In this document: positions 4,290-7,400 of the stretch, piece after piece
How positions within the stretch are numbered: the stretch's first letter is position 1
How the letters are laid out: each line of letters begins with the position of its first letter
NCBI RefSeq assembly: GCF_022458985.1
Contig: NC_061786.1
Coordinates: 18,172,974-18,236,973 of the forward strand
Length of the DNA stretch: 64,000 nucleotides
From: Mugil cephalus
Taxonomy: Eukaryota > Chordata > Actinopteri > Mugiliformes > Mugilidae
Direction of reading: 5' to 3'
The notes under the pieces: model-generated
The model's database searches: none
Told to the model about the DNA's origin: nothing
The model's input: the letters and a program-made list of their open reading frames with translations, nothing else
Made by a program: the position numbers and the translations under genes

Positions 4290-4470
4290 TCAAGCTCCCA
4301 GCATCTTCTTGACCATGTATCCAGGCATGTTGTAGAGGAACAGGCCCAGGATGGCCAGCAGCAGGAGGGCCGTGACAATCTTGATGGTCAGCCACCTGTA
4401 CTGGTCACATATCAGGTGCTTCGCAGCTTTGAAAGGGATGAGGAACCAGAGGAGAGCGATATCCGGGCGG
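4290..4470 (-). CDS. otof: otof alternative terminal exon 3 (distal)
   Basis: 181-nt exon with acceptor ccaccag, encoding [20 protein letters not shown], the hydrophobic helix [17 protein letters not shown] and the tail MVKKMLGA. It differs from the middle copy at about three residues (I/L, N/S, A/V). The MLGA end is closest to the LGA end known in mammals. It is followed by clustered poly(A) signals near 4118-4143. Confidence 0.9.
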
Positions 4471-7400
4471 CTGGTGGAGCACAGAGAGAGAAACAGCGAA
4501 TTAGACAAACAGCGTAAAGTTGAGAGTTGACAAATGTGAACTTCTAGGGATTATCAGCACTTTTAACTGCTATGTTTTATTATAGAAATAATTAAAAGAA
4601 CGCTGTATGCATATTTGAGTGTTTTTAGGGGTAATTTTATTCTAGTAGATTTCCCATATGGAACAAAAACCACAAGTTTGAGCCACAGAAAACAATAACA
4701 CGTCCACTCACCTTTCAGTTTCCACACAAACACGCACATAACAATAAAAGACACGAGCACCAAGCAGCTGAATGGTCCAGATGTCAGTTTATTCACAGAT
4801 TTGAAACAGAAGCAAGTAAATCTGAATTCAAACACGATGCTAACTGTGCTAAATATCCTTACTTTGCTTTAAACCAATATGACTTCTAATCTAATTAACT
4901 GATAATCATTTATTTTATATTATAGTATTAAGACATCACAACTATATGAGATGTGCGTTCATTAGGCTACATTAATCACCAATCATGGACACACTCGAGT
5001 TGTATTATTAGCACTGCTATTGTAATGCTTTGATTATTTTATGAAATTGTGAATTTGAAAAAAAGTAAATAAATATATATTACTGAAGCCACACTTTTTG
5101 AAGAAAACAAAACTTTCTTTCAAACTCCCAGCATCTTCTTGACCATGTATCCAGGCATGCTGTAGAGAAACAGGCCCAGGATGGCCAGCAGCAGGAGGGC
5201 CGTGACAATCTTGATGGTCAGCCACCTGTACTGGTCACATAGCAGGTGCTTCGCAGCTTTGAAAGGGATGAGGAACCAGAGGAGAGCGATATCTGGGCGG
5301 CTGGTGGAGTGAGGATTGTTAAAAAAAAAAAAAAAAGAAAGAAAAGAAAAAGAAATTAACAAGCCAAAGCCAACGAAGCAACACAGCTAGTAAGAGGAAG
5401 TTCCCGTATATTTAAGTAGTCTTTGTTTCTCACCTCTCGTCTCTTAAACATCTATTTTATACTTGTCTGCTTCCAGTTTCATGTCTGAGCGTCGCTAATG
5501 CTGCTTTGACGTCTGACTCCTCACTGGCTCATTCTCTCCACTTAAACTTGATGTGAATATTACAGCTACAAATTAAGACTCTGCTTCCAACCTTCAACTT
5601 CAAACAGAATGGTTCAAAATTAATCCAGTGTTTCACTTTAAGCTGAAAATGTGGATAAACTGTCTATTAACTGAGCTTTTTTTTTTGTTTCCCGAAGAAT
5701 AAAATGTCTATAAAATCTAATCAATAAAGTAACTTTGAGAAGATTATAAATGTATTGACAGCGCATTCCCTATTTAAATCATATAAAAAGAGTTTAAAAT
5801 GTTAAAATTGTAGAGAAAATGTGGATAGAAATGATGGATGAGTGACAGAAAGTGTGTTTTTTTTTTGTTTTGTTTTTATGAAACTGCTGGAACCTTCTGC
5901 AGAAGTGTCTGAGCAACACCTCAGACTCCCAGCATTTTCTTGACCATGTAACCAGGCATGCTGTAGAGGAAAAGAGCCAGCATAGCCAGCACCACCAGAG
6001 CAGTGAAAATCTTGATGGCCAGCCACTTGTACTGGTTGCAGACCAAGTGTTTTATGGCTTTGAAGGGAGTGAGGAACCACAGAAGGCTGGTGTCGGGACG
6101 GCTGGAAGGACAGAAATGTGCAAGTTGAGTTCTCATTCTCCGTTCGCCGTTTGAACTGAAATTTAGCAACGTGAACAATAACAAAGACACAAGACGAGGA
6201 AACGACATGTCGAGAAACTAACAGGTAGAAACCTAAAGAGAAAGAAAGAGCATCTTACCTTTAAAGAAAGAGGAAGTAGTCCAGAGCTTTGCAGAAGTAA
6301 ATGCGTGCAAATGTCCTCAATTCGTGAAATTATTTCTGCGTATTATCTTCTTTTAATGCAAATTTATTCTAATTATTTATGCTTTTATTTTTGATTAAAT
6401 AACGGTTGTGTTTTTAATTTATTTTATGACATTTTAGAACCGTTTATAAACTCTTTTAAAACACCTTTTGTGTGTGTGTGTAGGAGGTTCATGTAGAAAA
6501 TGGATAAATGTGACCGAGATAAATGGATTAAGATGTTAGTATTGGTGTCGATGGAAAAGCGTCCTTCATACTTGGGTTTCTCTAGAGGATCTGGCTCGTT
6601 TCGTCCTTCACCAACGGGGCTTTTCTCTGCCTCCTCTCCTGTCAGAAGGTGCAGCTCTGCTTCCACTTTTCCCTGAAACAAAGAAACATTTCATATTTGT
6701 CGTTATGGACCAACTTAGACGCATCCGTTTAAAATAGTTTAATAATATTTAACTGCATTCATTTCCAGCATAGCTCTGTGGGAGGGACTATTATTGGCTT
6801 GTCAAGAAATTCAACGTCCCTAGAGGTATGACTCCATTCATTTAACACCACGCTAGCATGCTAGCGCGCTACAATGAGACGTTAAACAGCCTTTATCTTT
6901 GGTTATGACCAGGACGTAACGTCGCTCTAAGCTGTGACCCACCGTGAGCTCAAACTCATCCTCTTCATTTCTGGCCACGAACGGCCACCAGCCCTTGATC
7001 CTCTTCTGTTTGAAGATGGAGACCATGGGCATCTCCGCCTCGTTGGTCACCATCTCGATGGTGCACTGCTTGGCCGTCTTCGCACCGCGCGGGAAACGGT
7101 TCAGGTCCAGCTCAATTGCACCTGTGGAGACATTTATTAATGAACTTCAAATGAGGCAAGTACGTGGAAATGTCGAAACAGCAACAACATCTTCTAAGTA
7201 ATGGAGTTAATTATTAAAACGATAGTCGCTGATACCCAGGAAATCGTCTGCAGAGAAATGATCAGCGTCCCACACTTGCAGATTAAGCCGAGCGGGGATC
7301 TTGTACTCGGTCTCATCCCAGGCAAACATGGACTCCTTTTTGGAGATGACGATCTTCTCCTCTGCCATGAGATAGTCGAAGGGGTAGACGAAGCGCCAGT

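Follow-up and report, generated by a model that had tools for sequence, protein, structure and literature searches.

The otoferlin gene of Mugil cephalus carries three tandem, complete versions of the exon encoding its C-terminal tail anchor, on the minus strand of a window of 64,000 nucleotides (the whole stretch of DNA analysed here). We consider it probable that the two distal copies, E5120 and E4290, are terminal exons which have recently been homogenised, likely by gene conversion, and that the proximal copy, E5921, is more cassette-like. Otoferlin is the hair-cell protein that is lost in DFNB9 deafness.

The host gene is otoferlin on the evidence of its translated upstream exons, as had been proposed in an earlier reading made without database searches (the sequence-only reading). 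The otoferlin structure 9qe2 was the first match in four of four PDB searches with upstream coding stretches, ahead of dysferlin and myoferlin; the matches covered these three proteins, with Fer1l4-6 lying outside the comparison. The Pfam domain Ferlin_C is completed by each of the tail exons E5921, E5120 and E4290 when joined to two shared exons (116.1, 111.4 and 113.6 bits, respectively; cut-off: 29.4), while with the tail exon alone the scores are 30.5, 26.0 and 28.2 bits, of which only that of E5921 exceeds the cut-off. No otoferlin tail was matched in the PDB, where the query with the E5120 tail retrieved dysferlin and, at E > 6, SecE subunits. A mouse otoferlin construct is described as ending before the helix (PMC12526402), and zebrafish is reported to have two otoferlin genes (PMC7140416). 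No encoding relatives were found in one viral-contig scan and one genome-contig scan, as expected for a vertebrate gene.

The last coding exon common to all tails is located at 6572..6672 (minus strand), as placed by a spliced alignment with introns at 6942-6673 and 6571-6102. The latter intron, of phase 2, leads from the shared exon to the first of the tail copies, and the shared donor reads CAA|GTATGA, likewise in phase 2, with 6572 as the final exon base. Downstream on the same strand lie the proximal tail exon E5921 (5921..6101) and the middle tail exon E5120 (5120..5300), both of which end in LGV followed by a stop, and the distal tail exon E4290 (4290..4470), which ends in LGA and a stop; each was delimited by its translation and acceptor, together with the joined Ferlin_C match. 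All three copies are 181 nt in length and are directly preceded by a CCAG acceptor. Each restores the split codon AA|C (Asn) after the 6572 donor and encodes 60 residues beginning with NRPD, followed by TGA. Three in-phase acceptors thus lie behind a single donor, with a stop in every exon, an arrangement shared with alternative tails of the OTOF exon 47/48 type. A tblastn search of the window with all three tails as queries revealed no fourth copy at E < 0.1. The coordinates, strand, common length, acceptors, phase, stops and LGV or LGA endings given in the sequence-only reading were all verified, and its interpretation of the exons as alternative versions of the tail-anchor exon is upheld by the in-phase acceptors, the 60-residue tails and the recognition of Ferlin_C with each of them.

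Splice sites were scored with matrices, using 28 of the 32 inferred otof introns as a reference. The introns at 17319, 14559, 13551 and 13428 had poor splice scores and were left out, since we took them to be artefacts of mistakes or gaps in the query peptide. Against this reference, the acceptor of E5921 equals or exceeds 20 of the 28 confident otof acceptors (a count that includes itself), that of E5120 equals or exceeds 10/28 and that of E4290 15/28.

The three copies differ markedly in their relatedness. E5120 and E4290 are recent twins, sharing 176 of 181 nucleotides, while E5921 is identical to E4290 at 141/181 and to E5120 at 142/181 positions. The sequence-only reading had taken the outer two exons as the near-identical pair and ascribed their likeness to recent duplication or gene conversion; such an event is supported for two of the copies, albeit the distal two (dS: 0.047), and not for the outer pair. 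By the NG86 method the twins show a dN of 0.022, whereas dN and dS reach 0.137 and 0.95 for E4290/E5921 and 0.121 and 1.03 for E5120/E5921 (YN00 dS: 1.04 and 0.76, respectively). The split of E5921 from the other two copies is therefore old, and the combination of a dS of approximately one with a dN of 0.12-0.14 (NG86) reflects long purifying selection. Synonymous codon differences number 2/60 between E5120 and E4290 and 19/60 between E5120 and E5921 (Fisher p = 5.5e-5, with sites taken as independent). At the protein level, E5921 differs from E5120 at 13 and from E4290 at 15 of the 60 residues, and E4290 differs from E5120 at three. Smith-Waterman scores of 860 (E5120/E4290) and 554 (E5921/E5120), the two pairs covered by the shuffle test, lie far above the chance maxima of 134 and 136, respectively, in 200 first-order Markov shuffles each. 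No signal of partial conversion of E5921 towards E5120 was detected, as the longest run of identical codons is five, a length attained by 2551 of the 5000 shuffles. Strong constraint on silent sites was also considered as a cause of the identity between the twins and is thought unlikely, given that E5921 differs from both at a dS of about one.

The likeness of the twins is confined to little more than the exon itself. Mismatches between E5120 and E4290 amount to 123 of 200 ungapped positions in the flanks as against 5/181 in the exon (p = 4e-39), and seven local-alignment comparisons of the flanks of the copies gave no clear excess over Markov shuffles. The strongest flank match, between the upstream regions of E5921 and E4290, was equalled by 10 of 200 shuffles, a marginal result that is uncorrected for multiple comparisons. 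Only the nine bases directly before the exon (CTCCACCAG) are common to E5120 and E4290. Because the twin flanks are unrelated, an event limited to about the exon is required to explain the identity of the twins. Gene conversion between old tandem copies is most likely, with a recent exon-sized duplication as the second-best fit. E5921 would have parted from the other copies long ago, and E5120 and E4290 would later have been homogenised by exon-limited gene conversion between older tandem copies.

Under the duplication alternative, which we regard as unlikely, the near-identity of the twins stems from a recent duplication of little beyond the exon, such that, until not long ago, the gene carried the two-tail arrangement of mammals. 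The restriction of upstream likeness to roughly the nine bases of CTCCACCAG is also expected of an exon-sized insertion. However, the inserted piece would have needed to land at a site that provided it with a usable poly(A) signal as well as a pyrimidine tract, features that both twins appear to have, which counts against this alternative on grounds of plausibility. It is similarly doubtful that one member of the distal pair is a relic excluded from every spliced transcript and resembling its neighbour solely through recent duplication or passive gene conversion. The differences between the twins, three nonsynonymous and two synonymous, give no sign of constraint on both copies, and at codons 45, 48 and 60, where only one twin retains the base of E5921, both amino-acid changes fall in E4290 and the single silent change in E5120. 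Both twins nevertheless possess an open frame with an in-frame stop, an ordinary acceptor and a plausible poly(A) signal. An assembly artefact, the explanation against which the sequence-only reading had cautioned, is very unlikely. The analysis is based on a single sequence, but five of the 181 positions, including two silent ones, distinguish the copies, the window contains no N, and a duplicated contig end would have brought its flanks along, whereas those of the twins are unrelated. Exon-limited gene conversion between older tandem copies remains the preferred explanation for the twins.

The regions downstream of the three copies differ in their predicted processing signals. AATAAA sites on the two strands of the window, 159 in total, were ranked by the GU/U-rich content of the sequence that follows. 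The site at 4788..4793 (minus strand), downstream of E5120, came first (1/159) and is the probable poly(A) signal of this exon. Three further AATAAA sites lie past this exon at 4914, 4641 and 4581 (ranks 54, 88 and 73), and for one of four such sites to rank first is approximately a 1-in-40 event. Past E4290, an AATAAA at 3861..3866 (minus strand; rank 11/159) represents a possible poly(A) signal and another is located at 3934-3929 (minus strand; rank 73/159). E5120 and E4290 hence each resemble a self-sufficient terminal exon equipped with a predicted poly(A) signal. Neither AATAAA nor ATTAAA occurs in the roughly 620 A+T-rich bases that separate E5921 from E5120, an absence that is not very surprising. 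A weak candidate donor (GAG|GTGTTG; 5914..5919, minus strand; score: -0.78) begins one base past the E5921 stop, with 5920 as the would-be last exon base. Three of the 28 confident otof donors are equally weak (7/32 when all introns are included), and 509 of 3760 GT sites on the same strand are equally good. E5921 looks more like a stop-carrying cassette, which may be spliced onward through this donor or else ended at a non-canonical signal; CATAAA at 5880 and TATAAA at 5461 would leave room for it as a terminal exon in its own right. A separate donor-like sequence, AAG|GTAAGC, occurs past E4290 at 4113-4121 (minus strand; GT at 4118), just beyond an (AATA)n run. Its score of 7.19 is higher than that of every one of the 32 inferred otof donors, and it may be due to chance or mark a 3′UTR intron.

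Further genes and gene-like frames can be observed elsewhere in the window. Between otof and the neighbouring gene lie two tRNA-Ala (AGC) genes (2849-2923 and 3460-3532, plus strand), approximately 540 bases apart and very alike by eye. The neighbour, a convergent gene at ~230-1190 (plus strand), encodes an EB1-like C-terminal motif (PF03271; Bitscore: 67.7) and a tail ending in DQDEY, and we take it to be MAPRE3-like. A 1335-codon open frame at 57153-61160 (minus strand), with long glutamine runs and a partial Tub domain near its end (PF01167; Bitscore: 54.1), is presumably TULP4-like. Exon-like frames at ~39300-41540 (plus strand) are reminiscent of AHI1; the frame at 39964-40356 among them matched no Pfam family.

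With respect to the consequences of tail choice, the 6572 donor is in phase with all three acceptors and may be spliced to any one of them. The first version joined would set the tail, and everything downstream of it would be untranslated. Since each version has its own stop, no special mechanism of exclusivity is needed. The description of the copies as mutually exclusive terminal exons in the sequence-only reading is accordingly unsupported: no sign of exclusion is seen in the sequence, and E5921, without AATAAA or ATTAAA before E5120, is possibly a stop-carrying cassette. We infer this use of the splice and poly(A) sites, and any tissue specificity that may accompany it, from the predicted signals. 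The most hydrophobic 19 residues of the tail occupy positions 28-46; E5120 and E4290 do not differ within this stretch (mean Kyte-Doolittle: 2.57), and E5921 departs from them slightly (2.65). With only three residue differences between the E5120 and E4290 tails and a hydrophobic core common to both, a choice between them would mainly alter the 3′UTR. Choice of E5921 would alter the helix and the segment ahead of it.

The mammalian OTOF gene provides the closest parallel. A stop at the end of its exon 47 is reported to render exon 48 untranslated (PMC10394277). Exon 47 has been described in brain, cochlea is reported to show exon 48 alone (PMC7768390; PMC5058964), and both exons are described in human brain (PMC5058964). 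According to one review, the distribution of the mammalian tails needs confirmation at the protein and cell level, and work cited there found that the two tails localise differently in cultured cells (PMC10394277). As proposed for the Mugil gene, the last 60 residues are picked by splicing between adjacent stop-bearing exons (PMC10394277; PMC7768390). The weak candidate donor of E5921 and the absence of a canonical signal behind it are compatible with, though no proof of, the exon 47 scheme. The mammalian gene, however, has two tail exons (TMD2, exon 47; TMD1, exon 48), whereas that of Mugil has three. In addition, the mammalian exon 47 is described as carrying a leucine block of more than nine (PMC10394277), while the longest leucine runs in the three tails here are 2, 4 and 4. 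Deafness variants have been reported at human Arg1939, Ile1967 and Pro1987 (PMC5058964; PMC10394277), and the corresponding places in E5921, E5120 and E4290 are occupied by R, I and P, if the human tail is assumed to comprise residues 1938-1997. The variant at 1967 is written with Leu in a second review, and the human residue thus depends on the isoform or source. When compared against the human tails, E5921, E5120 and E4290 match exon 48 at 42, 38 and 39 of 60 positions and exon 47 at 32, 34 and 33, respectively. All three tails appear nearer to exon 48 than to exon 47, which we offer as a lead only and from which no one-to-one orthology is claimed.

A broader scenario can be proposed on this basis, although we think it improbable as a whole. 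In it, the gene would encode three exon 48-type (hair-cell) anchors, of which the twins provide near-equal proteins with different 3′UTRs, the choice between which would decide mRNA fate or localisation. Conversion would keep the twins matched, E5921 would supply the sole different helix, and the gene would lack the leucine-block tail found in mammalian brain. Having three tails, of which two are near-equal, such a gene would allow the role of the helix to be separated from that of the 3′UTR, and homogenisation limited to a stop-bearing terminal exon represents a useful case for the evolution of alternative 3′ ends. No report of three otoferlin tail exons was found among the titles and abstract beginnings of the matches listed in the open-licence literature.

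Tandemly duplicated alternative exons that are homogenised by gene conversion form a known general class. The Mugil exons share with its members the adjacent, open copies of uniform length and phase, two of which resemble each other far more within the exon than in their flanking sequence. They differ from this class in being stop-bearing 3′ exons, for which the order of joining, rather than strict exclusion, would decide the protein. Tail choice by adjacent stop-bearing exons is known from mammals, and the three-exon version with recent twins would appear to constitute a new variation on this arrangement.
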